DNA from: Flavobacteriaceae bacterium UJ101
GTDB lineage: Bacteria > Bacteroidota > Bacteroidia > Flavobacteriales > UJ101
Length of the DNA: 64,000 nucleotides
Assembly: GCA_001880285.1 (NCBI GenBank)
Contig: CP016269.1
Coordinates: forward strand, 1,002,501-1,066,500
Direction: 5' to 3'
Shown: in pieces, positions 26,034 to 60,462 of the stretch
How positions within the stretch are numbered: position 1 is the first letter of the stretch
Layout of the letters: every line of letters starts with the position of its first letter
Made by a program: the position numbers and the translations under genes
The notes under the pieces: generated by a model
What the model saw: only the letters and a program-made list of their open reading frames with translations
What the model was told of the DNA's origin: nothing
Databases searched by the model: none

Positions 26034-27884
26034 TTAAATACTTTCCGGCAATGTATACTCTCTATCTTTATTTTCTTCTTTTAAATACTTCATTAAAGGC
26101 TCAAAATATTCTAACATAGGTTTAGCACTCATATCACTTCCAACATTTTCTATAAGCAATTCATGCCAATCACAATTAGCTCCCGGATATAAAATATTCT
26201 TCAAAAAGTCTCCTACTTCTTTATTTCCATAATAATTGGTTGCATGCGGATCTTGCTTTAAGATTTTTTTAGCAATATGATCATGCAATTGAAATAACAA
26301 TATATACGAAATAGCATAGTCATAATATTGGGCTGCATCATTGTTAATATGTGTTTTTGCTGTAGCATCACAATATTCCTCTCCTCTCTCAGTAGGAGGA
26401 ACAATTCCCTGGTACTTTTTCTTTAGTTCCCACCATTTTTTATTGAATTGATCTTTTGGTAAGTCTTGAGCATATAATTCATGTTCAAAACTGTTCATTA
26501 CACCAGCTGAAAAAGGTAAAAACACGACATAATTCATAGCTTCTTTTAATAAAATTTGCATTTCATCTGTCTGAGCATCTTTATTAATCAAACCTCTATT
26601 TACAAGAAAAGGTTTTTGCATCGCGGCTAAACCTAATAAACTTCCAACACCTTCATGAAACCCTCGATTAGCTCCACCTCTCAATAATGGAGGAACATCA
26701 GGATTGGTATACGTTAAATAATAATAAATATGCCCTAATTCATGATGTACCGTTTCATAATATTCAGGAGTTGGTGACACACTCATTAAACAACGCACAT
26801 CATTTTCTAAATTCATATGCCAAGCTGATGCATGATTATTTTTCTTGTGATCTGCATTTTTTGGTAAGGGATACATACTCCCCTTTTCGTAAAAAGATTG
26901 AGGTAACGCTTCAAATCCAATACTTTTGTAAAAATTTTCTCCTTCTTTTACAATCCATTCTGCTGATTTATCTTTCAATGCTTTTGATAAGTCCAATCCT
27001 TGTACTTGTATTTCAGGGCTCCAATCTTGTCCCCAACGATTCGGTAACCAATGAGCTGGTAACATATCAGGAACATCTGTATTGTATTTCTTAGCCAATT
27101 CATAACGCATATACGTATGTAATTCTCTATACAAAGGCCAAATATCACGAATCATTTGATCATTTAACTCTTGCATTTCATTACGTGTCATTCCATAGTC
27201 TGAAACTTGGTATGAATAATAATCGTCATAGCCTAAAGCTTGTACCGTTTGGTTACGTAATTTTTTTAGATTATCCAATCCCTCTTTTAATGTTTTACCT
27301 ACATCTTTTGATGATTCCCAATATTTTAAACGTTCATTTAAATCTTTACTAGAGGTTAGTTTCTCATCAATATCACCCGTACTCACTTCATTATCATCTA
27401 CTTTAAAGGTATACCCAAACAATGCTGCATTTTGTGCATTTTCTGCTTCAATTCGTTTTGAGACTAAATCTGCTACAATTTCTGGATTATTAGCAGCACC
27501 ATAAATAATGGCTTTTAATTGACGTACTTGAACAGGTTTTAATTTGTCTTCTTTTTCTAGAAATTTTTGTGCTTGCTCAATATTTTGCTTATTACCTGTA
27601 AATTTAGCAAAAGCTTCATCTGCTTCTTGTACTAGTTTTTCCGTTTCTTCATCCCCTTTTACAATATAAGTATTTGCTTTCCATTGTGCTTCAGAAGAGG
27701 CAGTATATAAAGCTACATATTCTTTTGTATAAGTATCTAAAAAAGATTGCACTTCCTTTTCTAAAGTACTATCAATTTCTTTTTGGGTAACTTCAACATT
27801 ATTGGATTGGGATTTTTCTGTCTTACATCCCATTATCACAAAAATTGTTGTCATTACGGTAGGTAATAACATTCTTGTTCTCAT
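26034..27884 (-). CDS. M2-family (ACE-like) peptidyl-dipeptidase lipoprotein
   Basis: This 616-residue envelope lipoprotein has a signal peptide with lipobox VIMGC (about residue 19-20). The large helical catalytic domain carries the zinc motif HHELGHIYYYL (HExxH). A downstream Glu lies in NRGFHEGVGSLLGLA, as in angiotensin-converting-enzyme-like M2 peptidases, which remove C-terminal dipeptides. Family length is about 600, so it is complete. It probably trims peptides in the periplasm or at the cell surface. It follows apt by only 12 bases, so they share a transcript. Confidence 0.9.
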   Translation of the reverse strand: MRTRMLLPTVMTTIFVIMGCKTEKSQSNNVEVTQKEIDSTLEKEVQSFLDTYTKEYVALYTASSEAQWKANTYIVKGDEETEKLVQEADEAFAKFTGNKQNIEQAQKFLEKEDKLKPVQVRQLKAIIYGAANNPEIVADLVSKRIEAENAQNAALFGYTFKVDDNEVSTGDIDEKLTSSKDLNERLKYWESSKDVGKTLKEGLDNLKKLRNQTVQALGYDDYYSYQVSDYGMTRNEMQELNDQMIRDIWPLYRELHTYMRYELAKKYNTDVPDMLPAHWLPNRWGQDWSPEIQVQGLDLSKALKDKSAEWIVKEGENFYKSIGFEALPQSFYEKGSMYPLPKNADHKKNNHASAWHMNLENDVRCLMSVSPTPEYYETVHHELGHIYYYLTYTNPDVPPLLRGGANRGFHEGVGSLLGLAAMQKPFLVNRGLINKDAQTDEMQILLKEAMNYVVFLPFSAGVMNSFEHELYAQDLPKDQFNKKWWELKKKYQGIVPPTERGEEYCDATAKTHINNDAAQYYDYAISYILLFQLHDHIAKKILKQDPHATNYYGNKEVGDFLKNILYPGANCDWHELLIENVGSDMSAKPMLEYFEPLMKYLKEENKDREYTLPESI

Positions 27885-38926: not shown

Positions 38927-39640
38927 ATGACACAGGACGAGAACGATAAAAGAATTCGAGAAAAATTTAGAGCTAAAGATTGGAACGAAATTAAATCAAA
39001 TGACTCATGGGCTTTATTTAAAATCATGGGAGAATTTGTTAATGGATTTGAAAAAATGGCAAAAATTGGACCTTGTGTTTCTATTTTCGGATCTGCTAGA
39101 ACGAAGCCTGACAATCCATATTACAAATATGCAGAAGAAATTGGACGCCTTTTAACCGAAAAAGGTTTTGGTATCATCACAGGAGGTGGTCCCGGAATCA
39201 TGGAAGCAGGAAATAAAGGAGCAAAAGAAGGGCAAGGAAAATCGGTTGGATTAGGAATTGAATTACCTTTTGAAGCTGGACTCAATCAATATGTTGATTT
39301 CGACAAGGGTATTGAATTTGATTATTTTTTCATTCGTAAGGTTATGTTTGTTAAATATTCCCAAGGATTTATCGTAATGCCTGGAGGATTGGGAACTATG
39401 GATGAACTTTTTGAAGCTTTAACTTTAATCCAAACACAAAAAATTGGACGTTTTCCTATCGTTCTTTTTGGATCGGCATTTTGGAATGGTCTAATTGACT
39501 GGCTAAAAGATACTTTGCTTAAAGAAGGAAATATTTCTGAAAAAGATTTTAATCTTTTTAGGATTGTAGACACTCCTGAAGAAGCCGTTTTTCATATCGA
39601 AAGTTTTTATAATAAATATGCTATTAAAGAAAATTTCTAA
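38927..39640 (+). CDS. LOG-family protein (TIGR00730; nucleoside 5'-monophosphate phosphoribohydrolase-like)
   Basis: This 237-residue Rossmann-fold protein has both LOG signatures: GGGPGIMEAGNKGA (about residue 85) and PGGLGTMDELFEALTLIQT (about residue 150). VSIFGSARTKPDN lies near the N-terminus. Family members hydrolyse cytokinin riboside or other nucleoside monophosphates to base and ribose phosphate. The long N-terminal extension before the Rossmann strand is usual for the longer bacterial branch. The M1-like barrel gene follows after eight bases. Confidence 0.9.
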   Translation: MTQDENDKRIREKFRAKDWNEIKSNDSWALFKIMGEFVNGFEKMAKIGPCVSIFGSARTKPDNPYYKYAEEIGRLLTEKGFGIITGGGPGIMEAGNKGAKEGQGKSVGLGIELPFEAGLNQYVDFDKGIEFDYFFIRKVMFVKYSQGFIVMPGGLGTMDELFEALTLIQTQKIGRFPIVLFGSAFWNGLIDWLKDTLLKEGNISEKDFNLFRIVDTPEEAVFHIESFYNKYAIKENF

Positions 39641-39648
39641 TTTTATAG

Positions 39649-42483
39649 TTGAAAGAACATTATCCTTATATCGTTTTTGTCTTTTTAGGTTTCTTTTTGT
39701 ATTCACAAGAGCCTTCTAATACTATAAAAATTAAAGCTAAACTCAATGTAGAAAAACGCTCAATCAAAGTTAACCAAACCGTTACTTTTCATAATCCAAC
39801 AGATCAAATGTTAGATAAAATCTATTTAACTATTTGGCTAAATGGACATCAATCTAAACATTCTAAACTAACAAAATCTAGACTTGAAAAACGTAAAACA
39901 AAACTCTATTTTCAAAAAAATAAAGAACGCGGTGGCATCTATGATTTAGAAGTTTCGGAAGCATATCAATTCATCGATTATGATATCATTGAAATATTTC
40001 CTCAGAAACCTCTAGCTCCACATGATTCATTAAAAATAGTACTTGATTTTAGAGCTAAAATACCTGATTACGATATTACCCGATATGGAAATCAGGGAGA
40101 TTATTTTCATCTTAAAAATTGGTTTTTTACTATACCAGCATTTGAAAACAACAAGCAAATAACCTATTCAAGCAAAGATTTTGATGATGAATTTAATAGT
40201 TTCACAGATTATTCTATTTATCTACAATATCCTTTCTATTTGCAATCCATCTCAAACTTAAAAATAAAAGATGATTATTATTTTATTGGGAAAAACATAA
40301 CCAATGCTGAAATTCTTCTAAAAAATAAAGTTTCCAATAAATATCATCATGATTTTTATTCTCAAAATCTGAAAAAAAAGAATGGAACTCATCTACTCAT
40401 TGAATCTGAAGCCCCTATAAACCAAGAATTAGCACAAAAACAACTCGATTTCTTAGAAAACCATTTAGGAGACTCCCCTAAAGATAAATTATTGTTAACC
40501 AAACGAAATCAACATAAAAATTCATTTGTGGGGATTGATGATATTAAAGGTTTTGGAGTAAACATTACATTATTTCCAAAAGAAGTTCAAAACGAATTGA
40601 ATTTATTTAATCAATTTTCCAATCAATTTATTGAAAACAAGGTTTTACTTAACAAAAGAAAAGATCATTGGATTTTAAATGGTACCGAAATATATATGCA
40701 ATTAAAATATTTGCAAACCTATTTTCCTAATCTAAAATTACTTGGTGATGCTCCAGAAAACTTTAAAGTACTCTGGACAAAACCTTTAAAAGCATTTCAT
40801 GTCTCAAAGCTTAATTTACAAGATCGATATAATCTGATGAATTTATTCATCATCAGGAAAAATGTTGACCAAAAAATCACCACTCCTTTGGATTCTCTTA
40901 GAAACCTTAACCATTCTATTATTAGTGGAGTTCAAACTGGAATGGGGTTTAATTACCTCAATGATTATACTGAAAATCAATTTGATAAAGGACTCAAAAC
41001 ATTTTTCACTCAATACAATAATCAATATGCTACAGCTAAAGATTTTGAAAATAGTATAAAATCTAATAGTACATCAAATAATATTGATTGGTTTTTTGAT
41101 GAATATTTAAATTCTAGAAAACCTTATGATTTCCAGTTAAAAAAATTTAAAAAAATTCATGATGATTCTATCAAATTGACGGTTAAGAATAAATACAATT
41201 CAAAAGGCCCATTTAAGATTTCAGCCTATAAAAATGATACTGTTATGTTTGAGAAATGGTTTGAATCACATGATGGGAAGCAATCTTATTTTATTCCAAA
41301 TCATGATTATACTCGTATTGAAATTAATGATCATCATATTGTTCCTGAAATAAACGATTTGAATAATCATATTAACACAAAAGGGTTATTTAAAAACAAA
41401 AAGACTCCTCAACTAAAATTTTTGATGGATGTTCAAAATCCAGAATATGCTCAACTTTTTTATCAACCTATATTAAATTGGAATAATTATGATGGGCTTC
41501 TATTAGGATTACGCTTATACAATTCAACCTTAATCAACAAACGTTTTCATTTTGCTTTTGCTCCTCAATATAGTTTTGAAACCAATACATTAACAGGAAG
41601 TGCAAAAGGAAATTATTCTATTTATCCTCGAAAATCCTCTAGTATATTTGAACGAATTCGCTTTGGAGGTGGTATTGCATATTATCACTATGACCAAGAT
41701 TTATCCTACTTTCAAATGAGTCCTAGTATCTCTTTTAAATTTAAGAGAAGATACCAACGAGCCGAAATTAATAATACTTTGAGTTTTAGGTTAAATTATT
41801 TAGATAAAGAAACTCCTTTAAATATACCCGTTAATAATGATGAATATCAATACACTATATTCAATCCTATCTTTAGACATAGTAACAACCACAAAATAAA
41901 TGAGTTTTCTTATTTTGCAAGTTTACATCAAAATAAGACTTTTGGGAAACTTTTTGGAGAAGTTTATTATCGTAAACGATTCGCACCAAGAAAAGTCTTA
42001 GGAGCAAGACTTTTTGGAGGTTATTTTTACTTTAATGATACGGAAAGTAATTATTTCGATTTCGGTCTTGATCGAGTAAATGATTATATGTTTGATTATC
42101 AATTATACGGTAGATCAGAAACAACTGGTTTACTGAGTCAAGAATATGTTTTAGCCGAAGGAGGTTTCAAATCTGCTTTTGGGGAGAAAGCGAATCAATG
42201 GATGATCACTTCTAATTTAGAAGCCGATGTTTGGTGGCGATTTTCTCTTTATGGAGATCTTGGTTTTTTTAAAAATAAATACGAATCAACTCAATTTCGT
42301 TATGATACAGGATTTCGATTAAAATTAATTCCTGATTTTCTAGAGTTTTACTTTCCAATTCAATCTAGTCTAGGTTTTGAACCTTCTTTAGAAGATGAGA
42401 AAAATTATTTTGAGCGAATTCGCTTTGTCTTCAAACCTAATTTTGGTAAAGCCATTAGTTACTTAAGACGAGGATGGTATTAA
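39649..42483 (+). CDS. M1-peptidase-like protein without zinc ligands, fused to an outer-membrane barrel
   Basis: This 944-residue exported protein starts at TTG with a signal peptide ending LYSQ. Residues about 20-230 form the beta-saddle of M1 aminopeptidases (TIKIKAKLNVEKRSIKVNQT, IYLTIWLNGH). Residues about 230-500 correspond to the gluzincin region. Where active M1 enzymes have HELxH and a later WLNEG, this one reads NQFSN (about 320) and WILNG (about 340). Both His, the catalytic Glu and the third ligand are therefore all replaced. From about residue 610 the sequence is a transmembrane beta-barrel (YDGLLLGLRLYNSTL, RFHFAFAPQYSFE) ending in an aromatic residue (RRGWY). It lies eight bases after the LOG gene. 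Confidence 0.75.
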   Translation: MKEHYPYIVFVFLGFFLYSQEPSNTIKIKAKLNVEKRSIKVNQTVTFHNPTDQMLDKIYLTIWLNGHQSKHSKLTKSRLEKRKTKLYFQKNKERGGIYDLEVSEAYQFIDYDIIEIFPQKPLAPHDSLKIVLDFRAKIPDYDITRYGNQGDYFHLKNWFFTIPAFENNKQITYSSKDFDDEFNSFTDYSIYLQYPFYLQSISNLKIKDDYYFIGKNITNAEILLKNKVSNKYHHDFYSQNLKKKNGTHLLIESEAPINQELAQKQLDFLENHLGDSPKDKLLLTKRNQHKNSFVGIDDIKGFGVNITLFPKEVQNELNLFNQFSNQFIENKVLLNKRKDHWILNGTEIYMQLKYLQTYFPNLKLLGDAPENFKVLWTKPLKAFHVSKLNLQDRYNLMNLFIIRKNVDQKITTPLDSLRNLNHSIISGVQTGMGFNYLNDYTENQFDKGLKTFFTQYNNQYATAKDFENSIKSNSTSNNIDWFFDEYLNSRKPYDFQLKKFKKIHDDSIKLTVKNKYNSKGPFKISAYKNDTVMFEKWFESHDGKQSYFIPNHDYTRIEINDHHIVPEINDLNNHINTKGLFKNKKTPQLKFLMDVQNPEYAQLFYQPILNWNNYDGLLLGLRLYNSTLINKRFHFAFAPQYSFETNTLTGSAKGNYSIYPRKSSSIFERIRFGGGIAYYHYDQDLSYFQMSPSISFKFKRRYQRAEINNTLSFRLNYLDKETPLNIPVNNDEYQYTIFNPIFRHSNNHKINEFSYFASLHQNKTFGKLFGEVYYRKRFAPRKVLGARLFGGYFYFNDTESNYFDFGLDRVNDYMFDYQLYGRSETTGLLSQEYVLAEGGFKSAFGEKANQWMITSNLEADVWWRFSLYGDLGFFKNKYESTQFRYDTGFRLKLIPDFLEFYFPIQSSLGFEPSLEDEKNYFERIRFVFKPNFGKAISYLRRGWY

Positions 42484-45651: not shown

Positions 45652-47088
45652 TTAAGGTTTGTTATATTTAACTGTTTTTGTATCGATTAATTCGTTAGTA
45701 GTCTTATTATAAACTTCTATCTTCAATTCTTTTGCACCTAATAGGCGTGACTGTCGAATAGAGGCCTTAAACCTTCCTTTAATTGTTTCTTGAGGAATCA
45801 ATTCTACAATTTCATCATCATCGTTCATAACATTAATTCCACCTCTTGGTTCTACTAATTTAAATTTCAATTGTGCCGAATCGGCTGTTTTATTAGTGAC
45901 AACAAATTCATATGTATTGATAATTAAATTTCCTTTTGTTTCATAAGCTTTAGTGTTGCCACGCTGATGGAAAATTTTAACTTCATAACTACTTCTCATA
46001 AAAAGTAAGCTAGTTAATAGTCCAGTTAACATCACAAGTAAAACCGTATAAGCTTTAGATCTAAAAGTAAAACGAGGTTTGGTTTCATTTTTAATACTAA
46101 ATTCAGATGCATATCGAATCAGTCCTGTTTCAAAACCTACTTTCTCCATTACTTCATCACAGGCATCCATACAAGCAGTACAGTTTACACATTCCAATTG
46201 CGTTCCATTACGAATATCAATTCCTGTCGGACACACAACAACACATTGATTACAGTCAATACAATCTCCAATTCCTTCTGCTTTTCGGTCTACTGTTTTT
46301 CTAAATTTCGCACGTCCTTTAGTTCCTTCTCCTCTTTTGTAATCATAGGCTACTACAATGGTATCTTGATCAATTAAAACACTTTGTAATCTACCATATG
46401 GGCAAACCATCGTACAGGCTTGTTCTCTAAACCAAGCAAAAACAAAATAAAATATTCCAGTAAAAATGAGTAATCCAAAGAAAAGTTCAATATGTTCTAA
46501 AGGCCCCTCAGTAATATATTTTAAAACACGCTCCGTTCCAATAACATACATTAAGAATATATTGGCAATAATGAATGATATTAAAGCAAAAATAGACCAT
46601 TTCAAAGCTCTTTTCCATGTTTTTTCAGCATCCCATTCTTGGCGATCTAATTTCATTTGCTTGTTTCGATCACCTTCAATAGCATATTCAATTTTCCTAA
46701 AAACCATTTCCATAAAAATAGTTTGAGGACAAATCCACCCACAGAAAATACGTCCATAAACAACGGTAAAAAGTATGATAAACACTAAAGATGTAACCAT
46801 TCCTATCGCAAATAGGAAGAAATCTTGAGTGAAAAACATAAATCCAAAAATGGAGAATTTATTATCGATTATGTTAAGCATAAAAAATTGATTTTTTAAG
46901 CTGGGTATAATCAGATGTAAGAATGGGGTTATAAATAATATAAGCAGTAAAACATAACTCACATAAGTTCTATAATTAGTGTATTTACCTTTAGGCTTTC
47001 TAGGGTAAACCCAATTACGACTTCCTTCTGAGTCCATAGTAGAGACATGGTCTCTAAATGAATCTTCTTCAATGTGTTCTGGTTTCAT
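45652..47088 (-). CDS. ccoG: Cytochrome c oxidase accessory protein CcoG
   Basis: This 478-residue membrane iron-sulfur protein is involved in copper handling for cbb3 oxidase. It has four to five helices. CGWICPQTIF and CTMVCPYGRLQS occur between helices. A 2[4Fe-4S] ferredoxin domain follows with CIDCNQCVVVCPTG and CVNCTACMDACD. A last TM helix precedes a periplasmic Ig-like domain. It starts 35 bases after a terminator hairpin that separates it from ccoNQP, so it probably has its own promoter or depends on readthrough. Confidence 0.94.
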   Translation of the reverse strand: MKPEHIEEDSFRDHVSTMDSEGSRNWVYPRKPKGKYTNYRTYVSYVLLLILFITPFLHLIIPSLKNQFFMLNIIDNKFSIFGFMFFTQDFFLFAIGMVTSLVFIILFTVVYGRIFCGWICPQTIFMEMVFRKIEYAIEGDRNKQMKLDRQEWDAEKTWKRALKWSIFALISFIIANIFLMYVIGTERVLKYITEGPLEHIELFFGLLIFTGIFYFVFAWFREQACTMVCPYGRLQSVLIDQDTIVVAYDYKRGEGTKGRAKFRKTVDRKAEGIGDCIDCNQCVVVCPTGIDIRNGTQLECVNCTACMDACDEVMEKVGFETGLIRYASEFSIKNETKPRFTFRSKAYTVLLVMLTGLLTSLLFMRSSYEVKIFHQRGNTKAYETKGNLIINTYEFVVTNKTADSAQLKFKLVEPRGGINVMNDDDEIVELIPQETIKGRFKASIRQSRLLGAKELKIEVYNKTTNELIDTKTVKYNKP

Positions 47089-47123
47089 TTCTTTTGTTTG
47101 TCTTTATTAAGTAAAATTACAAA

Positions 47124-47150
47124 AAAAGCACTTCATGCAGAAGTGCTTTT
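47124..47150 (-). terminator. Terminator between ccoP and ccoG
   Basis: On the minus strand an 11-base perfect stem (AAAAGCACTTC / GAAGTGCTTTT) with a five-base loop is followed by seven T. It lies 72 bases after the ccoP stop and before ccoG. Confidence 0.78.
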
Positions 47151-47221
47151 AGAGTTTATTACTGTTAAAATTAAACGATTAATTTGTTCAAGCGTTCAAT
47201 CTTGTTTCTACTTTACATACT

Positions 47222-48088
47222 CTATTTAGCAGTATCTGCCCATGGAGCTAAAGTTCCTTCAGGAGATTTTGGTTTACTAGGTGGTTTTACACCTCTTAAA
47301 CTTTGTACATAAGCTGAAACTTGTTCGATTTCTTCTGGTGATAATTTTTGATCTTCACCCCATGCAACCATAGCTGTTCCATCTACACCTTTCCAGACAA
47401 CAGATGCGATATTGGTATATAAATCATCTGTAAATTGATTTTTCCAAAAATCATCTGTTAAATTTGGACCTGCTGCTCCGGCACCTCCTTTCATATGACA
47501 AGAAACACAGTTTCCTTCAAATAATGCTTGTCCTGCTGCAATCTTACCTTCATCTAAAACAGTTTCTGCAATGAATTGATCGTAAGTTGGTGGAACATAA
47601 TTTTTTTCAAAATCAGCTACAGCCGTTTCATACTCTACTGGTGGATTTGCAAAATCGGTAAAGACAACAAATACACTATAAATAGCCGCATACACCATTG
47701 TTACGTATAATATTCCTAACCACCATTTAGGTAAGTTATTATCTAATTCAGTAATCCCATCAAAACCATGATCAATAATCATTTCTTTTTCTTCTTGTTC
47801 CGATTGCTTTTGGAAAGCACTTTCGTATAATGATTGGAAGAATGATTTATCTTTTGTTTTTAATGCTTCTGCTCTTTCTTCTTCAGGTAGAACACTAATT
47901 TTGTAGTTTTCAATAACACGATCTAGTGCATCGATAATGAATAATAAAAGCGTCGCAATTGCCAAAGTTCCTATTAAATAAGTATTGGCTAGGTCAAACT
48001 CTTCTTTGTTATCTGAAACAAAATAAAATGCTCCAATAATTAATCCTAAAACAACTGGAATTAATATGTATAAAGGAATTCTTTTCAT
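47222..48088 (-). CDS. ccoP: cbb3 oxidase subunit III CcoP (single heme c)
   Basis: This 288-residue membrane-anchored c-type cytochrome has two N-terminal helices and a charged cytoplasmic loop. The FixP-type segment NNLPKWWLGILYVTMVYA follows, then a periplasmic cytochrome c domain with one heme site (CVSCH, about residue 193) and an axial Met in GTAMVAWG. Proteobacterial CcoP has two CxxCH sites; only one is visible here. It overlaps ccoQ by four bases and is followed by a terminator. Confidence 0.92.
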   Translation of the reverse strand: MKRIPLYILIPVVLGLIIGAFYFVSDNKEEFDLANTYLIGTLAIATLLLFIIDALDRVIENYKISVLPEEERAEALKTKDKSFFQSLYESAFQKQSEQEEKEMIIDHGFDGITELDNNLPKWWLGILYVTMVYAAIYSVFVVFTDFANPPVEYETAVADFEKNYVPPTYDQFIAETVLDEGKIAAGQALFEGNCVSCHMKGGAGAAGPNLTDDFWKNQFTDDLYTNIASVVWKGVDGTAMVAWGEDQKLSPEEIEQVSAYVQSLRGVKPPSKPKSPEGTLAPWADTAK

Positions 48089-48276
48089 AATTGTTCTTTT
48101 TTATTTTCGTCTTCTAAATCTAATGGTAGTTCACTCTCGTTTTTATAAAAACCTTTTGGTTTTGAAAAAACAGCGTATAATAATAATGAAAAGGTGATAA
48201 AAAATAATACTAATACGATGATTGATGTTATATCACCCCCACCTTCTACTAAATATCTTTGAACGTATTTTCCCAT
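48085..48276 (-). CDS. ccoQ: cbb3 oxidase subunit CcoQ
   Basis: This 63-residue single-helix membrane protein (ITSIIVLVLFFITFSLLLYAVF, then KPKGFYKNESELPLD) sits between the CcoNO fusion and CcoP. Size and position fit CcoQ, which stabilises the complex. It starts 11 bases after the CcoNO stop and overlaps ccoP by four. Confidence 0.85.
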   Translation of the reverse strand: MGKYVQRYLVEGGGDITSIIVLVLFFITFSLLLYAVFSKPKGFYKNESELPLDLEDENKKEQL

Positions 48277-48287
48277 TGTTATTAGAA

Positions 48288-50672
48288 TTAGTCTTTGAAT
48301 TCAATTTTAGTTCCTAAACTTCTAATATATGCAATCAATGCAATCACTTCACTGTTGGAAATCTGCTCTTTATATTCTTGAGCTAACTTATTAGTAAGTT
48401 TTTCCATTTCAATATTTTTAGCATCTAGTTTCTTATCGATAGCCTTGATTTCAGCTTCAACCTTTTTGTATTCAGGAGATCCTTCTTCTAATCCAGCTAG
48501 CTCATCCTCTAAATCAGCTTGAGGATCTACTAATGTTTCTATAATTTGATGCTCTAAATCTTTTATTTGAGTCAACCCAGCAGCCTCTTCGTAAAACTTA
48601 ACCGGTTCAGAAGTACCATCTGCCATTAATAAATTAAAGATTTCTTCTCTTTGTTCATCTATCCAAACTTCTGCATCTTGAATATCTTCGTCGGTATAAG
48701 GAACTCCAAGACTACGTAATGTTTCCATTTTGTCTTGTGCCTGACTTATATCCAACGTATTAGCTAACAACCACGGATATGCAGGCATAATAGATGCTTC
48801 TTCAACATAACGAGGATTAATAAAGTGTTTATAATGCCAAGCTGGATTCGGGTTACGAGCTCCTTCAAATCCTAAATCAGGTCCAGTTCTTCTTGATCCC
48901 CATAAGAATGGATGATCATAAATAAACATTTCTGATTTAGAGAAACCTAATTCTGGAGTAGAGTAACGTTTTACTTCGTCACGGAATGGACGAACCATCT
49001 GTGAATGACAAGCATTACATCCTTCTTTAATATAGATATCACGCCCTTCTACTTCTAAAGGTGTTAATGTGTTTACGATAACTTCATCACTTTTGAAATC
49101 ACTTAATAATGTAGGAGCAACTTCAATTAATGATCCTATCAATAATGCGATAGCAGAACCAATAGATAATTGAACTGGCATTCTTTCTAACCAAGTATGG
49201 AATCCTTCTCCAGATTGTCTTGGTGTTCCTTTATTAATAGCAGGAGCTTCAACTTCTTCATTTGATGTAAACGATCCTTTTGAAACTGTTTTCCATACGT
49301 TTACAATCATGATGATACTACCTGTCAAGTATAGTACACCTCCGATTGCACGTATAATATACATAGGCTTAACAATAGTTAAAGTTTCAAGGAAGTTTTT
49401 ATTTGCTAATGTTCCTTGTGGTGTAAATTCTGATAACATTTGATATTCTGCAAATCCAGCCCAATAGATTGGAATTACATATAAAATAATACCTAATGTT
49501 GCTAACCAGAAATGGGCATTAGCCATACCTACTGAATGTAGTTTAGTATTCCACATTTTTGGAACTAAGTAATACGTCATACCAAAAATAATCATACCAT
49601 TCCATCCAAGAGCACCAACGTGAACGTGTGCAATTACCCAGTTAGTAAAGTGTCCTATTGTATTTAATGTTTTTGTAGCTAATAATGGTCCTTCAAAAGT
49701 TGCCATACCATAACATGTTAAAGCTACAACAAAGAATTTTAAAATAGGATCTTTAGCTACTTTATCCCAAGCACCACGTAAAGTTAATAATCCGTTTAAC
49801 ATACCTCCCCAAGATGGAGCAATTAACATGATCGAGAATACAGTTCCTAGAACCTGTGTCCAGTTAGGTAATGCGGTATATAATAAGTGGTGAGGACCTG
49901 CCCAGATATAAATAAAAATTAATGACCAAAAGTGAATAATTGATAATTTATACGAGAATACAGGTCTATTAGCTGCTTTAGGTACAAAATAGTACATAAG
50001 ACCTAACACTGGAGTAGTTAAAAAGAAAGCTACTGCATTATGTCCATACCACCATTGCATTAAAGCATCTTGAACTCCAGCGTAAGCAGAGTATGATTTC
50101 CATAAAGAAACTGGTAATTCTAAATTATTAAATATATGTAAAATGGCTACAGCAAAGAATGTTGCAATGTAAAACCAAATAGCTACATATAAATGGTGTA
50201 CTCTTCTTTTAAAGATAGTACCAAACATGTTAATTCCAAAGATGACCCAAACCACTGTGATTAGGATATCAATTGGCCATTCGTGTTCAGCATATTCTTT
50301 AGAGGTATTGATTCCTAAAAAGAAGGTTACTACTACTAATACGATCATAATTTGCCATCCCCAGAAGTTTGCCCAACTCAAGGCATCACTATACATTCTG
50401 GTTTTAAGCAATCGTTGCATGGAGTAATAAACCCCTGCGAAAATAGCATTTCCAACGAATGCGAAAATTACGGCACTGGTATGCAACATTCTTAAACGAC
50501 CGTATCCTAACGGCGCTACGTTTTGACCAAAAATATCTTGCCATAAATCTGGGTAAAACAATAGAGAAGCGACTGTAACTCCTAGAAGGAATCCAACTAC
50601 TCCCCAAAAAATTGTGGCATACAAAAAATACTTGACAATCTTGTTGTCGTAACTAAATTTTTGAAGTTCCAT
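48288..50672 (-). CDS. ccoNO: Fused cbb3 cytochrome oxidase subunits I and II (CcoN-CcoO)
   Basis: This 794-residue protein joins the catalytic heme-copper subunit and the mono-heme subunit. Residues about 1-490 are CcoN with 12 or so helices. They include the heme-ligand stretch MLHTSAVIFAFVGNA, the copper-site WWYGHNAVAFFLTTPVLG and a later HVHVGALGWNG. After a further membrane helix (about 500-520), the CcoO domain has the heme c site GCNACHSQMVRP (about 550) with TGPDLGFEGARNP. Near residues 700-770 is a Glu/Lys-rich coiled-coil-like insertion before the final AYIRSLG helix. The fusion is known from Bacteroidota. Confidence 0.94.
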   Translation of the reverse strand: MELQKFSYDNKIVKYFLYATIFWGVVGFLLGVTVASLLFYPDLWQDIFGQNVAPLGYGRLRMLHTSAVIFAFVGNAIFAGVYYSMQRLLKTRMYSDALSWANFWGWQIMIVLVVVTFFLGINTSKEYAEHEWPIDILITVVWVIFGINMFGTIFKRRVHHLYVAIWFYIATFFAVAILHIFNNLELPVSLWKSYSAYAGVQDALMQWWYGHNAVAFFLTTPVLGLMYYFVPKAANRPVFSYKLSIIHFWSLIFIYIWAGPHHLLYTALPNWTQVLGTVFSIMLIAPSWGGMLNGLLTLRGAWDKVAKDPILKFFVVALTCYGMATFEGPLLATKTLNTIGHFTNWVIAHVHVGALGWNGMIIFGMTYYLVPKMWNTKLHSVGMANAHFWLATLGIILYVIPIYWAGFAEYQMLSEFTPQGTLANKNFLETLTIVKPMYIIRAIGGVLYLTGSIIMIVNVWKTVSKGSFTSNEEVEAPAINKGTPRQSGEGFHTWLERMPVQLSIGSAIALLIGSLIEVAPTLLSDFKSDEVIVNTLTPLEVEGRDIYIKEGCNACHSQMVRPFRDEVKRYSTPELGFSKSEMFIYDHPFLWGSRRTGPDLGFEGARNPNPAWHYKHFINPRYVEEASIMPAYPWLLANTLDISQAQDKMETLRSLGVPYTDEDIQDAEVWIDEQREEIFNLLMADGTSEPVKFYEEAAGLTQIKDLEHQIIETLVDPQADLEDELAGLEEGSPEYKKVEAEIKAIDKKLDAKNIEMEKLTNKLAQEYKEQISNSEVIALIAYIRSLGTKIEFKD

Positions 50673-50675
50673 TTC

Positions 50676-50864
50676 TTATAATTTGTCCTTTTTATTTTTC
50701 AAATTTGGTTGTTCTTTTTTTACAGGTTCATCGTCTAATAATATTCGAACAGCTGGTGCATGATCATCATCAAATTGTCCATTGCGAGCACTAACAATAA
50801 AAATGATTAAAAAAATTATTGCTAAACTTAAACTTGCTAATATCATTAAAAACAATATTTCCAT
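50676..50864 (-). CDS. ccoS: cbb3 oxidase maturation protein CcoS
   Basis: This 62-residue single-pass membrane protein (EILFLMILASLSLAIIFLIIF) is followed by the conserved SARNGQFDD and a short polar tail, the CcoS pattern. CcoS is required for cofactor insertion into cbb3 oxidase. It lies three bases before the ccoNO start and 59 after ccoI. Confidence 0.9.
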   Translation of the reverse strand: MEILFLMILASLSLAIIFLIIFIVSARNGQFDDDHAPAVRILLDDEPVKKEQPNLKNKKDKL

Positions 50865-50923
50865 AACTAGAACCGCAAAAATAACTTTTTTTATTAAAGA
50901 AAAGTTAATTTGTATCCATAAAA

Positions 50924-53305
50924 TTACTGAGTTTTTTCAAGTTTACCAACTAAATAAGTGGAAAGCGTTGCGAAAATTACTACCGAGATAGAACTTAGAG
51001 GCATCAAGATGGCTGCAACTAGAGGAGAAAGATAGCCCATAACCGCAAAACTTAACCCAATAACATTATAAAGTAAACTAATAACAAAGCTAGTTTTCAA
51101 AAGGGATACAGCGTATTTTGACATCTGTAATAAAGAAGGTAATTGTTTAAATGATTTTCCATCTAAAATAGCATCACAAGAAGGCGAAAAACTATTAATA
51201 TTATCAGCTATTGAAATACCTGCATCGCTTTGTTTAAGAGCTCCTGCATCGTTTAGCCCATCTCCAATCATCATCACTTTTTTATCCTCTTTTTGTAATT
51301 GTTGAATATAATTCAGTTTATCTTGAGGTGTTTGATTAAAAAAGAGAGGTGTTTTTTCTGACATGATTTTTGTCAGGTTTCCTTTTTCAGAATCATTATC
51401 ACCTGATAAAACAGCTAACTTGAAGTTTCTTTTAAGTCGATTGATTACTTGAGAAACAGAATTTCGATATTTATTTTCAATTTTAAAATAACCTTTGATT
51501 TCATCTTCCTTTTTCACATAAACTTTAGTCTGATTAATTTGAAAATCTAAATCAGTTTCAATAAAAGAGGCTGATCCTAGTTTCCAATTTTCAGAATTTA
51601 CAGTAGCTTGAGAACCTTTCCCAGGGTTTTCCTTAAAATTCTTAATTTCCTCAAGAGGGTTAATATCGTTTAAATGATTGTATACAATTCGGCTTAAAGG
51701 ATGATTGGAGTTTTTTGTAAGAGATTTTATAGCTATTTTGTCAGTTTGAGTTAATTCTTGACCTACAAAAACAACTTTTGCTGTTTCATTTTCAGTGATG
51801 GTTCCTGTTTTATCAAATATGATAGTATCAATTGTGGCCATATTTTCAATAGTAGAAGTATCTTTTACATAAAGACCTCTTTTTGCCATAATTCGCATCA
51901 TATTACCAAAAGTAAAAGGTGCAGAAAGGGCTAAAGCACATGGACATGCTACAATTAAAACTGCCGTTACAATTTCAAATACTCGTGAAGAATCAATAAA
52001 CCACCAAACAACTCCTGTTAGAATTGCAATTAAAATAACAGCAATAGTAAATTTTTTACTTATTCGATCTGTAATTATTTTAAAATTATCTCTTTTTTTG
52101 AAGGCTTTATTATTCCAAAGTTTGGTAAGATAACTTTGATCGATTTCCTTAATAGTTTCTACTTCTATGGCACCTCCTATTTGTTTTCCTCCAGCAAAAA
52201 TTTTATCTCCACTTTTTTTCTCAATTAGACGAGATTCTCCTGTAACAAAACTATTATCAATATTAGCTTCTCCTTTAATTAATATAGCATCTGCAGGTAT
52301 AATTTCTTCATTCCTAATTAAAATCCGATCTCCTTTTTTAAGATCAGATAATATAATATTTTCTTCTTTATCGTTTGAAATTCTTGTAATTGCAATAGGG
52401 TAAAACGATTTATAATCTCGATCAAATGAAAGAAAATTATAGGTGCTTTGTTGAAAATATTTTCCTATCAATAAAAAGAAAACAAAGCCTGCTAAACTAT
52501 CAAAGTATCCATACCCAATTCCTGTAATAACCTCATAACTACTACGAAAGAATAAGGTGAGAATTCCTATTGAAATCGGAACATCAATATTGAAATTATC
52601 ATGTTCAATTCCTTTAAAAGCTGATTTGAAATAATCTTGAGCAGAATATAAAACCACTGGTAAACTCAGAATGAGCATTAGCCAACTAAAGAAAGTTTTG
52701 AAATCACCTTCTAACCATTTAGAATCAGCTCCAACATAATCTGGGAAAGCTAATAACATAATATTTCCTGCACAGAAAAAGGCAACAGCTAGCTGTAACA
52801 TTAACCTTCGGTTAACAAAAATATTTTGCTTCTTCTCTACTGTTTCGAGAGAAACAATAGGTTTATAACCTAATTGTGTTAAAAATTTTGCCAAATCTGA
52901 TAACTGACAATGCTCATTTTCATAAGTAATTGTAATGGTTTTTTTAGTAAAATTTACTTGACACTGCGTAACATGTTCATGAAACTTAGGTAAACTCTCT
53001 AATAACCAAATACATGATGTACAATGAATAACAGGTATAAAAAAAGTCACTACAGTAAATCCACCATCAGAAAAATCTACGATTTGATTGAAAACTTTTT
53101 CAGTATCTAAAAAATTGAATTGTTGAAGGCTTTTTTTATCAGGTTCAATTCCAGGATGTTGATTTAAAGAATAGAATTCAGAAAGGTTATGTTCATTCAA
53201 AATTTCATAAACAGTCTTACAGCCATTGCAACAAAATGCTTTCTCATCTATAAAAAAAAGGTCGTTTTCAGACTCTTTACCACAATGGTAACATGTTTTA
53301 TTCAT
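50924..53305 (-). CDS. ccoI: Copper-type P1B ATPase CcoI/FixI
   Basis: This 793-residue membrane ATPase delivers copper for the cbb3 active site. An N-terminal cysteine-rich zinc-ribbon-like region (CYHCG...FCCNGC) precedes a HMA-like domain with HCTSCIWLLE. The transmembrane metal site is IVACPCALALSAPF, the phosphorylation site is FDKTGTITENE and the hinge is MIGDGLNDAGALKQSD. The extra N-terminal cysteines and position before ccoS-ccoNO identify the FixI type. It is divergent from the Crp/Fnr gene. TAATTTTG at 53359-53352 (minus) is a candidate promoter element. Confidence 0.92.
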   Translation of the reverse strand: MNKTCYHCGKESENDLFFIDEKAFCCNGCKTVYEILNEHNLSEFYSLNQHPGIEPDKKSLQQFNFLDTEKVFNQIVDFSDGGFTVVTFFIPVIHCTSCIWLLESLPKFHEHVTQCQVNFTKKTITITYENEHCQLSDLAKFLTQLGYKPIVSLETVEKKQNIFVNRRLMLQLAVAFFCAGNIMLLAFPDYVGADSKWLEGDFKTFFSWLMLILSLPVVLYSAQDYFKSAFKGIEHDNFNIDVPISIGILTLFFRSSYEVITGIGYGYFDSLAGFVFFLLIGKYFQQSTYNFLSFDRDYKSFYPIAITRISNDKEENIILSDLKKGDRILIRNEEIIPADAILIKGEANIDNSFVTGESRLIEKKSGDKIFAGGKQIGGAIEVETIKEIDQSYLTKLWNNKAFKKRDNFKIITDRISKKFTIAVILIAILTGVVWWFIDSSRVFEIVTAVLIVACPCALALSAPFTFGNMMRIMAKRGLYVKDTSTIENMATIDTIIFDKTGTITENETAKVVFVGQELTQTDKIAIKSLTKNSNHPLSRIVYNHLNDINPLEEIKNFKENPGKGSQATVNSENWKLGSASFIETDLDFQINQTKVYVKKEDEIKGYFKIENKYRNSVSQVINRLKRNFKLAVLSGDNDSEKGNLTKIMSEKTPLFFNQTPQDKLNYIQQLQKEDKKVMMIGDGLNDAGALKQSDAGISIADNINSFSPSCDAILDGKSFKQLPSLLQMSKYAVSLLKTSFVISLLYNVIGLSFAVMGYLSPLVAAILMPLSSISVVIFATLSTYLVGKLEKTQ

Positions 53306-57302: not shown

Positions 57303-57872
57303 TTATCTTCTTCTTTTACTACTTGTTTTTTTCTTTGAACTACTACTCGTTGATTTTCCTTTTAGTTCATTAATCACTAAATTACTAATATCAAATTTAG
57401 GATTTGTGTACACCATAATCAAATCACTTGATTTATCTAATACAATACCAATACTCTTCTTCTTGGCTACTTTATTAATGGCATTCCAAATTTGGTCTTG
57501 AATTGGACGAACTAATGACTGTCTTGTTCGAATGATATCACCTGCTGTTCCAAATCGTTTTATTTTTAATTCCTGTAGCTTTTCTTTTGCTTCTTGAATT
57601 TCTTTTTGTTTTTCTTTGATTTGGTTTTCGGTAAATAAAACTTTTTGACTTTCAAATTTCATTTCCAATTGGTCTACTTTTTCTTTTTCCGCATTCAATT
57701 CTGTCTCCCATTGTTCAACCATGGTTTCAAGCTGTTTCTGGGCTTGTTGATACTTTGGCATTTGTTTTAAAATATATTGTGTATCAACATAATGAACTTT
57801 CTGGGAAAAAACGAATGATAAACCTGCAAATAACGCCAGAAATATAAATTGTATCTTCTTTGTACTAACCAT
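57303..57872 (-). CDS. OmpH/Skp-family periplasmic chaperone (first copy)
   Basis: This 189-residue exported protein has a signal peptide ending FVFSQ. KVHYVDTQYILKQMPKYQQAQ opens the mature part, a long Glu/Lys coiled coil follows, and IGIVLDKSSDLIMVYTNPKFD ends the fold. A Ser/Lys/Arg-rich tail (SSSSKKKTSSKRRR) of about 18 residues extends beyond the usual Skp end. It lies 22 bases after bamA and 29 before a second ompH. The two paralogues differ in length and tail and may hold different clients (inference). Confidence 0.9.
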   Translation of the reverse strand: MVSTKKIQFIFLALFAGLSFVFSQKVHYVDTQYILKQMPKYQQAQKQLETMVEQWETELNAEKEKVDQLEMKFESQKVLFTENQIKEKQKEIQEAKEKLQELKIKRFGTAGDIIRTRQSLVRPIQDQIWNAINKVAKKKSIGIVLDKSSDLIMVYTNPKFDISNLVINELKGKSTSSSSKKKTSSKRRR

Positions 57873-57894: not shown

Positions 57895-60462
57895 TTAAAA
57901 CTGTTGTCCTAAAATAAAATGTGTTACCCAACCTGAAGCTTCGTTTTGATCTGGATAAGGATCCATTCCATATCCAAAATCAAGACCTAATAGACCAAAG
58001 GCAGGCATAAATACTCTCAATCCTACACCCATTGAACGTTTTAGTTCAAATGGTTGAAACTTTTCTTTATCATCCCAAACGTTACCAGCTTCAAAAAATC
58101 CTAAAGCATATATTTTTGCAGCTTGTCCCATCGAAATTGGGTAACGAAGTTCCGAAATAAATTTATTATATACAACTCCTCCTCCAACTGGTGTTATATC
58201 ATCTGCTGATCCACCATTATTGGAAGCATCCTCATAACCTCTTAAAGGGATTTGTTCTCTACCATCAAAATTGTTTCCTAATAGACCTGTACCTCCCATA
58301 TAAAAACGCTCAAATTGAGAAATACCTATATCTTTATCATATGCACCAAGGAATCCGAATTCACCTCCTAAACGTAAAACCAATTTTCCTGCTACTTGTT
58401 TATAGAAATCCGTTTTAAATTTAATTTTATAATATTCTAACCATTTGTATTTATCTGCTTCTTCAATTCCTGCTATATATTGATCTGCTGTGGCAGAATT
58501 AGGTGCATTAGGAAATTGTTCTTCACGAATTCTTGTTTCTTCTTCTGCAGATAATTTATACCAATCCTTTTCTTTAAACATTGAGAAAGGAGGTGTAAAA
58601 CTAGCTGAGATATTAATATCAGAACCATTCGTAGGAAATATAGGGTCTGGACCTGCTGAAAAACGTCCAAAACTAATATTATAGTTAATATTGTTTGATG
58701 TACCTTCTGTAAAGTTAAAAACAGAACCTAAATCATAATTATTTAAATCATATCGCTTATAACCAATAGAGTGAGATAATCTAAAATAGCTGTCAGGCCA
58801 ATTTAAAGTGTGATTTAAACCTAATGTTGCTCCTGTAATTTTCACATCTCCATTAGTTACATTGTTTTCATAGATCGAGTGATAAATACTAGCTGTTAAA
58901 GCAGTAGGTCTCTTTCCAAAAATCCAAGGTTCTGTAAAAGATAAACTATATGTTTGATAACCACTACCTGCACTTGCTCTTAAAGATACCTGTTGTCCAT
59001 CTCCTTGTGGAAATGGTTTCCAAGCTTCACCATTAAACAGGTTACGCAATGAGAAGTTATTCAATGTTAATCCCAATGTTCCAATGAAACGTCCTCCTCC
59101 GTATCCTCCTTGTAATTCTATTTGAGAAGCTCCTTGTTCTGCTAATTTCCAGTTAACATCAACCGTGTTATCTTGTGGATTGGGTTGCACATCAGGTTCT
59201 ATTTGTTGTGGATCAAAATAACCTAATTGTCCTAAACGATAATACCCTTGTTTTAAACCTGATTTAGAAAACTTTTCTCCTGGTTTTGTAGGAATATTTC
59301 GTGCTACGACTCGGTCAAACGTTGTCGTATTCCCTTCAAAGGTAATTCGTTTATAAAATGCTTGTTCTCCTTCATTGATTCGAACTTCTAAATCAATAGA
59401 GTCTCCTACAACATTTACTTCGTAAGGTGTAATTCTGGAGAAAATATAACCATCATCATAATATAACGTGGAAATATCTTGTTCTTTAGGGTCACCTGAG
59501 ATTTTATTTTGGAATCCTACAGCATCATAAGGATCTCCAGGTAAATATCCTACTAACTTTTTAAGTCCTTCTGTTGAGAATTTTGTATTTCCAACAAAGT
59601 CTATATTTCGAATATAATAACGTTTTCCCTCTGATACACCAACTTTAATGTCAACTGATTTCTCATCATGATTATAAACAGTATCAAATGTTAAATTAGC
59701 ATCACGAAAACCAAATGATCGGTAAAAATCTACCAAGTTTTTTTTATCAGTTTCGAATTGTTCTGGGTTGAATTTATGACTTTGTAAAAGGTTTAAATTT
59801 TTACGTTTGGTTTTCTTAAATCCTTTTTTACGTAATTGAGCATCGCGAAATTCTTCATTCCCTTCAAAAATGATATCGTGGATTTTAATTTTATTTCCTT
59901 TGTTAACATCAATCGTTAATTTTACACGATTGGCAGAATCAGGCTCAGATAAAGAAGTTTTTGCATTAGCATAAAGAAAACCTTTGTCTTTATATTGTTT
60001 TTCAATTTTACTTCGAGTAGAACTCAATAGATGCTCTGTAACACGTTCACCTGTTTTTAAATCATTTTCTTTTATGATTTCTTCTACTTTATTTTTCTTT
60101 ACACCTTTAACCTCTACATCCGATAATGTTGGCAAGCCTTCTAATTGTAATCGAAGGGTTATTTGGTCTCCTTCTATTTTGTCTACATAAACTTCAACAT
60201 CATTAAAAAGACCTGTATCCATTAATCTTTTGATAGCAAAAGAAACATCATTGCCTGGAATGGTAATTTCATCACCTACCTTAAGTTTTGTAAAACTCAT
60301 GATAGCTCCTTTTTTATACTTAGTGTAACCTGTAACTTTTAAATCAGTTAATTTATAAGTTTTTCGCTCTTCTTGTATTTGTTGTGAAAACACAAAAACT
60401 GAAAAAATGGAATAAATAAAGGTTAGATATATTTTTTTCATATTACTTTTAGTCATCATCAT
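57895..60462 (-). CDS. bamA: Outer-membrane assembly factor BamA
   Basis: This 855-residue outer-membrane protein is the core of the barrel-insertion machine. After the signal peptide, five POTRA-like units fill residues about 30-430 (TDLKVTGYTKYKKGAI; VEVKGVKKNKVEEIIKENDLKTG; IIFEGNEEFRD; IDFVGNTKFSTEGL; ITFEGNTTTFDRV). The Omp85 barrel follows, with the terminal strand WVTHFILGQQF. The start is uncertain: ATGs occur at 60462, 60459, 60456 and 60441. The last (MKKIYLTFIY) gives the most typical signal peptide. It lies five bases after uppS and before two ompH genes. Confidence 0.94.
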   Translation of the reverse strand: MMMTKSNMKKIYLTFIYSIFSVFVFSQQIQEERKTYKLTDLKVTGYTKYKKGAIMSFTKLKVGDEITIPGNDVSFAIKRLMDTGLFNDVEVYVDKIEGDQITLRLQLEGLPTLSDVEVKGVKKNKVEEIIKENDLKTGERVTEHLLSSTRSKIEKQYKDKGFLYANAKTSLSEPDSANRVKLTIDVNKGNKIKIHDIIFEGNEEFRDAQLRKKGFKKTKRKNLNLLQSHKFNPEQFETDKKNLVDFYRSFGFRDANLTFDTVYNHDEKSVDIKVGVSEGKRYYIRNIDFVGNTKFSTEGLKKLVGYLPGDPYDAVGFQNKISGDPKEQDISTLYYDDGYIFSRITPYEVNVVGDSIDLEVRINEGEQAFYKRITFEGNTTTFDRVVARNIPTKPGEKFSKSGLKQGYYRLGQLGYFDPQQIEPDVQPNPQDNTVDVNWKLAEQGASQIELQGGYGGGRFIGTLGLTLNNFSLRNLFNGEAWKPFPQGDGQQVSLRASAGSGYQTYSLSFTEPWIFGKRPTALTASIYHSIYENNVTNGDVKITGATLGLNHTLNWPDSYFRLSHSIGYKRYDLNNYDLGSVFNFTEGTSNNINYNISFGRFSAGPDPIFPTNGSDINISASFTPPFSMFKEKDWYKLSAEEETRIREEQFPNAPNSATADQYIAGIEEADKYKWLEYYKIKFKTDFYKQVAGKLVLRLGGEFGFLGAYDKDIGISQFERFYMGGTGLLGNNFDGREQIPLRGYEDASNNGGSADDITPVGGGVVYNKFISELRYPISMGQAAKIYALGFFEAGNVWDDKEKFQPFELKRSMGVGLRVFMPAFGLLGLDFGYGMDPYPDQNEASGWVTHFILGQQF

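Follow-up and report, generated by a model that had tools for sequence, protein, structure and literature searches.

An M1-peptidase-fold protein without its active site, joined to an Omp85-like outer-membrane barrel, in Flavobacteriaceae bacterium UJ101

The protein described here is encoded in a 64,000-nucleotide stretch of the genome of Flavobacteriaceae bacterium UJ101 (this whole stretch is called the window below). It joins a domain with the fold of the M1 aminopeptidases, in which the zinc ligands and catalytic residues have been replaced, to an outer-membrane barrel that resembles those of Omp85 proteins (Table 1). Since relatives of the same architecture keep the active site, the protein, which occurs across flavobacteria, looks like an enzyme that has been turned into a part of the outer-membrane machinery. 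Proteins with and without the intact site are referred to as live and dead, respectively.

Table 1. Features of the pseudopeptidase-barrel gene (positions in the window; residue numbers of the encoded protein)
Feature	Position	Strand	Basis or remark
Whole gene, M1-like pseudopeptidase plus outer-membrane barrel	39649..42483	+	944 aa, TTG start
Signal peptide (putative), residues 1-19	39649..39705	+	Gln20 conserved, whether the row is live or dead
M1 saddle (N-terminal) domain, about residues 21-226	39709..40326	+	Secondary structure of the model, M1 superposition
GxMEN-equivalent strand, residues 294-306, VGIDDIKG..	40528..40566	+	GGMEYP in live relatives
Degenerate HExxH, residues 321-325, NQFSN	40609..40623	+	Aligned to HE[VI]GH of live relatives
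Degenerate third-ligand motif, residues 341-345, WILNG	40669..40683	+	Trp341 and Gly345 retained
Catalytic Tyr position, Gly427	40927..40929	+	Alignment with live rows
Beta-sandwich (M1 domain III-like), about residues 495-560	41131..41328	+	Secondary structure; inside the M1-superposed range
Omp85-like barrel, residues 600-944 (16-strand model)	41446..42480	+	Last strand and C-terminus of low confidence
54-residue loop between strands 11 and 12 (L6 position), residues 797-850	42037..42198	+	Conserved LxGRSExxGxxSQQ and Arg822; partly pLDDT under 50
YGDLG in strand 13, residues 868-872	42250..42264	+	F/GxDxG position of Omp85 proteins, with Y or F for F/G

The gene and its M1-like domain

The genome searched (3.07 Mb) has a single copy of the gene, besides six further M1 genes, all six with HExxH. 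A gene for a Peptidase_M2 protein (angiotensin-converting-enzyme family) also lies in the window (26034-27884, minus strand). The signal peptide is likely to be cleaved before Gln20, which matches the 'Q-rule' for Bacteroidetes signal peptides as given in PMC5837995.

The open reading frame starts eight bases after a LOG-family gene (38927-39640; TIGR00730), as the sequence-only reading of this DNA had stated, and 48 of the 80 loci of relatives likewise have a LOG gene upstream in the same orientation (some contigs end too early to tell). The order uvrA-like gene, LOG gene, pseudopeptidase-barrel gene is frequent where open reading frames were read by eye, while the LOG neighbour is missing in Chryseobacterium and relatives. 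Because this synteny holds in part of the clade only, it gives no functional hint, and a functional link to the LOG gene was rejected. No partner gene was common to all of the loci examined (the 80 of the dead family and the live ones of family f18). The live f18 genes L151, L156, L159 and L160 have a Bac_transf sugar-transferase gene, an Acetyltransf_6 gene or both as neighbours, which hints that these live M1-barrel genes may belong to a surface-glycan locus. Further along the window a cbb3 oxidase cluster (45652-53305, minus strand) encodes a ferredoxin protein of the FixG-like type, a P-type ATPase for heavy metals and, at 48288-50672, a fusion of COX1 and FixO domains. The bamA gene (57895-60462, minus strand) is some 15 kb away from the pseudopeptidase-barrel gene, with POTRA repeats and an Omp85 domain, adjoined by an OmpH/Skp-like gene (57303-57872).

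In a Pfam search the protein gave one match, Peptidase_M1 (PF01433), at 18.5 bits and below the cut-off of 27.7; its NCBIfam search gave no match, and phmmer against PDB sequences returned nothing useful. With E<=1 as the limit, the Peptidase_M1 profile matches 18 of 22 members of the family, and all eight live relatives tested score above its cut-off, the barrel-less L035 included. An AlphaFold2 model made with 64 family sequences reached a pLDDT of 83.9 and a pTM of 0.85. When the best Foldseek PDB chains were aligned to it with VIA-align, M1 enzymes came out on top (PSA and ERAP1 among them), led by IRAP (8p0i_B; Z 21.8, rmsd 3.1, 448 residues aligned); the two-domain Deinococcus M1 enzyme 6iff gave a Z of 20.1, and the part superposed on M1 enzymes begins at residue 22-23. 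Superposition on solved M1 enzymes at a Z of about 20 upholds the earlier view that the M1 fold (saddle and gluzincin) is retained, and a predicted structure without that fold, which would have told against it, was not seen. With M1 aminopeptidases such as IRAP, ERAP1 and the two-domain M1 enzyme of Deinococcus radiodurans the dead family shares the three-domain fold, the order of elements and the helix register of HExxH and WxxEG, whereas it lacks the zinc ligands, the catalytic Glu, the GxMEN strand and the catalytic Tyr, and has a barrel.

The names of the M1 motifs (HExxH, GxMEN, third ligand, catalytic Tyr) follow the usage of the M1 literature. NQFSN and WILNG align without a gap with HE[VI]GH and W[ML]DEG of the live relatives, the first motif residue standing 20 before the Trp in both, so that the replacement of all ligands, as read from the window sequence, is found in the same register as the intact motifs. 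A search for HE..H over the whole length of the window protein and of 80 flavobacterial relatives found none in these 81 rows, i.e. no intact motif is present elsewhere in the window protein either. Position 321 is never His (Lys in 51 rows, Ser in 26, Gln in two, Asn and Gly in one each) and position 322 never Glu (mainly Thr, Ile, Val or Ala); at 325 Lys (32), His (13), Asn (10) and Arg (10) occur besides others, and at 344 Asp (44), Asn (30), Glu (six) and Gly (one). The question whether close homologues all lack the ligands can therefore be answered for the His-Glu pair (0 of 81 rows), and the loss of the catalytic elements belongs to the whole family and is not a peculiarity of one protein. 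By contrast, the suggestion that the changes keep size and polarity fails, because Asn-Gln-Asn is not a family pattern: it is peculiar to the window protein, and its near-isosteric character was dropped as evidence, since residues 321, 322 and 325 vary across the 81 rows.

The loss extends past what the sequence-only reading had noticed, to the GxMEN-equivalent strand and the catalytic Tyr. In a set of 72 M1-plus-barrel rows, the GMEY-type motif is present in 27 of 27 live and 0 of 45 dead rows, as is the catalytic Tyr, and the 45 rows without the four ligands are the same 45 that lack GMEY and Tyr. Judged from these alignments, the M1-fold domain is incapable of acting as a zinc peptidase. 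That another part of the domain has gained a new chemistry, catalytic or metal-binding, is very improbable: many members of the family carry His340 and an Asp, Glu or Asn at 344, and a hydrolytic pocket could be rebuilt, but no invariant set of His, Asp, Glu or Cys exists in the old cleft across the family, and the residues at 321, 322 and 325 are free to vary.

The barrel and its likeness to Omp85 proteins

The fusion to an outer-membrane barrel ending in Tyr is borne out, the M1 part being followed by a barrel region of about 340 residues. In a model of this region alone (pLDDT 78.0, pTM 0.76), 15 strands of good confidence and a weakly modelled last strand were counted by eye from DSSP. The best 50 PDB chains found with Foldseek are all of the TamA, BamA or Sam50 type (best E 1.1e-6, TM-scores 0.4-0.5), and VIA-align places BamA (8xnb) first at a Z of 17.3, with FhaC and CdiB also among the matches; 16-strand porins follow at 14.1-14.5, which is not far under the value for BamA. 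The earlier description of a peptidase-like domain on a membrane pore is to be refined accordingly: the likeness is to assembly and translocation barrels of the Omp85 type and not to a generic pore, although the margin over porins is modest.

Profile comparisons with hhalign depended on the set of barrels: those of live proteins match TamL-type barrels at 77% and all Omp85 barrels at 80.5%, with the Asp motifs mutually aligned, compared to 0.5-1.5% for FadL controls. The mixed set of dead and live barrels reaches 9-15% against Omp85, and alignment A3 0.2% against BamA-type and 6% against TamL-type barrels. The barrel profiles also match those of the DUF5686 outer-membrane proteins of Bacteroidota at 84-87% (hhalign), the N-terminal part of which differs. 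DUF5686 barrels (L243-L262) themselves align poorly with Omp85 barrels of the same genomes (0.3-4.9%), and DUF5686 was not found by name in the literature searched, whose coverage leaves out most subscription journals.

In Omp85 proteins the Arg of the VRGY/F motif in L6 pairs with the Asp of the strand-13 F/GxDxG motif, according to PMC5422565. The position of Asp870 holds Asp in all 45 dead and in 19 of 27 live rows, with Glu in six further live rows; at the position of Arg822, Arg is present in 24 of the 27 live rows, and among the 45 dead rows 33 have Arg and 11, mostly Weeksellaceae, have Gln. As modelled, the barrel has 16 strands, a long loop between strands 11 and 12 and a strand-13 Asp motif in common with Omp85 proteins (TamA/TamL, BamA, FhaC, PlpD). 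Unlike these, the protein has a peptidase-fold domain in the N-terminal place: Pfam found no POTRA in the 944-residue protein, whose N-terminal part is the M1 fold, and no Omp85 domain (PF01103) in the barrel, and VRGF/Y was not found in L6, where the window protein has LYGRSE. Since the VRGY/F wording, the POTRAs and the Pfam domain are missing, the barrel is called Omp85-like and is not filed as a member of Omp85.

With 16 strands and L6 outside, the N- and C-terminus would both face the periplasm. The M1-like domain could alternatively be a passenger that its own barrel moves to the surface, in the manner of patatin-type V secretion, for binding or adhesion there. For the patatin-Omp85 protein PlpD such delivery of an enzyme domain is described (PMC4104836), and the order of N-terminal domain and Omp85-type barrel is the same. 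PlpD, however, has a POTRA, which is absent here, the linker that leads from the domain to the barrel shows high conservation (Pro566, Glu567, Asn573 and Pro598), unlike a release site, and at 540 residues the M1 domain is large for a translocated passenger, which makes the passenger reading distinctly unlikely. The 'Metallo' subfamily of Omp85 (Heinz and Lithgow 2014) also combines an Omp85 barrel with an N-terminal metal-enzyme domain, which differs from the present one in being PF00149 and not M1, as PMC4104836 itself states. Identity with BamM of the F. johnsoniae BAM complex was rejected: BamM is described as a surface lipoprotein with a PPI fold and a calcium-binding C-terminal domain, against the M1 fold plus barrel found here.

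Live relatives, loss of catalysis and shift of constraint

Live forms were sought by a family-profile search of 395 genomes of the phylum and 26 hand-picked divergent genomes of the order, which yielded M1-plus-barrel proteins about 900-1060 aa long; a single-protein search of the genome contigs gave no match. Among the proteins fetched, the site is intact in those from families outside the order (f18-f23, f27) and from the families f4, f6, f11, f14 and f15 (L197) within it, and dead in families f1, f3, f5, f7, f12, f13 and f15 (L184, genome G053). HExxH, the Glu, GMEY and the Tyr are kept in register in 27 of 72 rows of the same architecture. These live proteins (L146-L162, L186, L197-L201, L203, L206; about 900-1020 aa) share with the dead ones the architecture and a barrel with a loop at the L6 position and (F/Y)xDxG, and are unlike them in keeping HE[VI]GH..W[ML]DEG, GMEY and Tyr and in having an M1 part that is conserved above the barrel. 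As live forms occur both inside and outside the order, the dead state is derived within the order, and the dead family descends from live proteins built in the same way.

For the number of losses of the site in flavobacteria, the trees point to one event (full-length) or up to four (barrel-only). In the full-length tree, computed with a quick method after dropping the active-site columns, all 45 dead rows lie on one side of a single branch (99% SH-aLRT), a result that may suffer from long-branch attraction because dead rows have a fast-evolving M1 part. A careful tree of the barrel alone needs four changes, with family f7 adjoining the live row L186, and an AU test on it with the 45 dead rows as one clade gave p 0.0489. 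Outside the flavobacteria, genome G737 (family f18, same class; L180/L288, at L288:1094 on the minus strand) encodes a protein that has HAMGC for HExxH and lacks GMEY but retains WMDEG and a barrel of full length. This is an independent loss with the barrel kept; catalysis has therefore been lost at least twice in this architecture. The G737 gene is adjoined by a live barrel-less M1 gene, and genome G097 (f7), which holds the dead L194, also has a second M1 copy with HEVGH that is split by a stop (L211).

The rows used were selected as follows. Alignment A2 holds 63 of the 80 loci, hand-picked to cut redundancy. From the search of the order L204, L205, L207 and L209-L212 were excluded (fragments, barrel-less M1 genes or the split L211), and L208 gave no row. 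Of the loci of the phylum 19 are in the tree, with L163, L164, L165, L168, L170 and L171 (about 1000 aa, all with HExxH), L166 and shorter barrel-less proteins excluded; L180/L288 was found after tree building and is in no tree. In other members of the phylum (L172, L173, L174, L182 and L183) the gene after a live M1 gene of 660-694 aa encodes a multi-pass membrane protein (about 256-303 aa; no Pfam match in the two tested); the two genes are possibly a conserved pair. That the 296-aa gene beside 660-aa live M1 genes is a split-off barrel was rejected, as it looks multi-pass by eye and has no hhalign match.

At a threshold of E<=1e-100, set by the analysts, a match is present in 143 of 149 genomes of family f3 and in 120 of 148 of family f5. 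In the remaining 28 genomes of f5, including most of genus g405, the gene is missing or, as in G908, decayed and is therefore dispensable there. A wider draw gave any match at E<=0.001 in 222 of 395 genomes of the order, weak matches to other M1 genes included.

Where it is kept, the dead protein remains under purifying selection: median dN/dS is 0.048 for the gluzincin domain, 0.087 for the saddle and 0.054 for the barrel in six independent pairs, taken from eight close-enough pairs among the 80 relatives. The distribution of constraint has nevertheless been swapped. Among pairs with 25-30% identity in the barrel, the live ones (n=60) share 53% identity in the saddle and 41% in the gluzincin domain, compared to 18% in each for the dead ones (n=108); in live proteins conservation of the M1 domain far exceeds that of the barrel, and in dead proteins it falls below it. 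On the fixed full-length topology, which presupposes one loss, the ratio of dead to live tree length is 3.63 for the saddle, 1.82 for the gluzincin domain and 0.75 for the barrel, and the stem of the dead clade measures 0.52, 0.60 and 0.03, respectively (the comparison covers these three parts; three live rows have no letters in domain III). Following these tree lengths and dN/dS values, the enzyme part shed its old constraint and changed fast, unlike the barrel, and yet has not decayed.

This pattern bears on the reading that the barrel is what works (a barrel of another kind, for assembly, transport or structure), with the dead domain a mere folding scaffold or lid that is tolerated given the other M1 enzymes of the cell. 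In its favour, the barrel of dead rows is better conserved than their M1 part, which evolves 2-5 times faster than the barrel in relative terms, and the other six M1 genes of the genome all carry HExxH. It is harder to reconcile with a gluzincin dN/dS as low as that of the barrel, with Trp341, Gly345, Tyr354, Gln408 and Asn421 being invariant or nearly so in 64 rows, and with a domain length that is kept, no deletion occurring in full-length relatives. On balance this reading is rather unlikely.

Proposed role and significance

The best explanation, put forward tentatively and with somewhat less than even confidence, is that the M1-fold domain serves as a non-catalytic periplasmic module for binding or gating on an Omp85-like barrel that acts in protein insertion or translocation. 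The protein would be exported by Sec and reside in the outer membrane, with the dead domain placed at the periplasmic mouth of its 16-strand barrel, where Omp85 proteins carry their POTRAs. The emptied cleft or the saddle might bind extended chains or a partner protein, which would thereby be positioned at the barrel, or the barrel might be gated, and the barrel would then insert or translocate outer-membrane or surface proteins. A new binding role for the dead domain, as proposed from the window sequence, is plausible.

An M1 fold that is thought to bind chains and not to cut them has a precedent in yeast Tma108, a member of the M1 family with a suspected non-enzymatic role and the M1 case named in a review of pseudo-metallopeptidases (PMC11266112). 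Tma108 differs in being eukaryotic and ribosome-associated, in keeping nearly all active-site residues and in having no barrel. A further case, that of TAF2, did not turn up in the literature search. No description of an M1-barrel protein, live or dead, was found in the literature searched, a coverage outside which most subscription journals lie. A bolder proposal, which is doubtful at present, would treat the M1-barrel proteins as an undescribed Omp85-like class in which a peptidase replaces the POTRAs; the flavobacterial form would be a non-catalytic client receptor and a near-universal assembly or secretion factor, and the loss would have been repeated because cells keep the barrel and not the proteolysis.

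Databases are prone to naming such genes peptidases, for which the sequence gives no support. With live and dead versions of one architecture coexisting in one order, the birth of a pseudoenzyme can be followed here as a natural experiment, in which the move of constraint away from the enzyme and onto the barrel is measurable. The outer membranes of Bacteroidota are unusually complex. Their assembly machinery is still being mapped, as newly found BAM subunits indicate (PMC12611786), and a near-core, single-copy protein that combines an Omp85-like barrel with a dead peptidase in the position of the POTRAs would make a candidate for a factor of assembly or export that is still missing.
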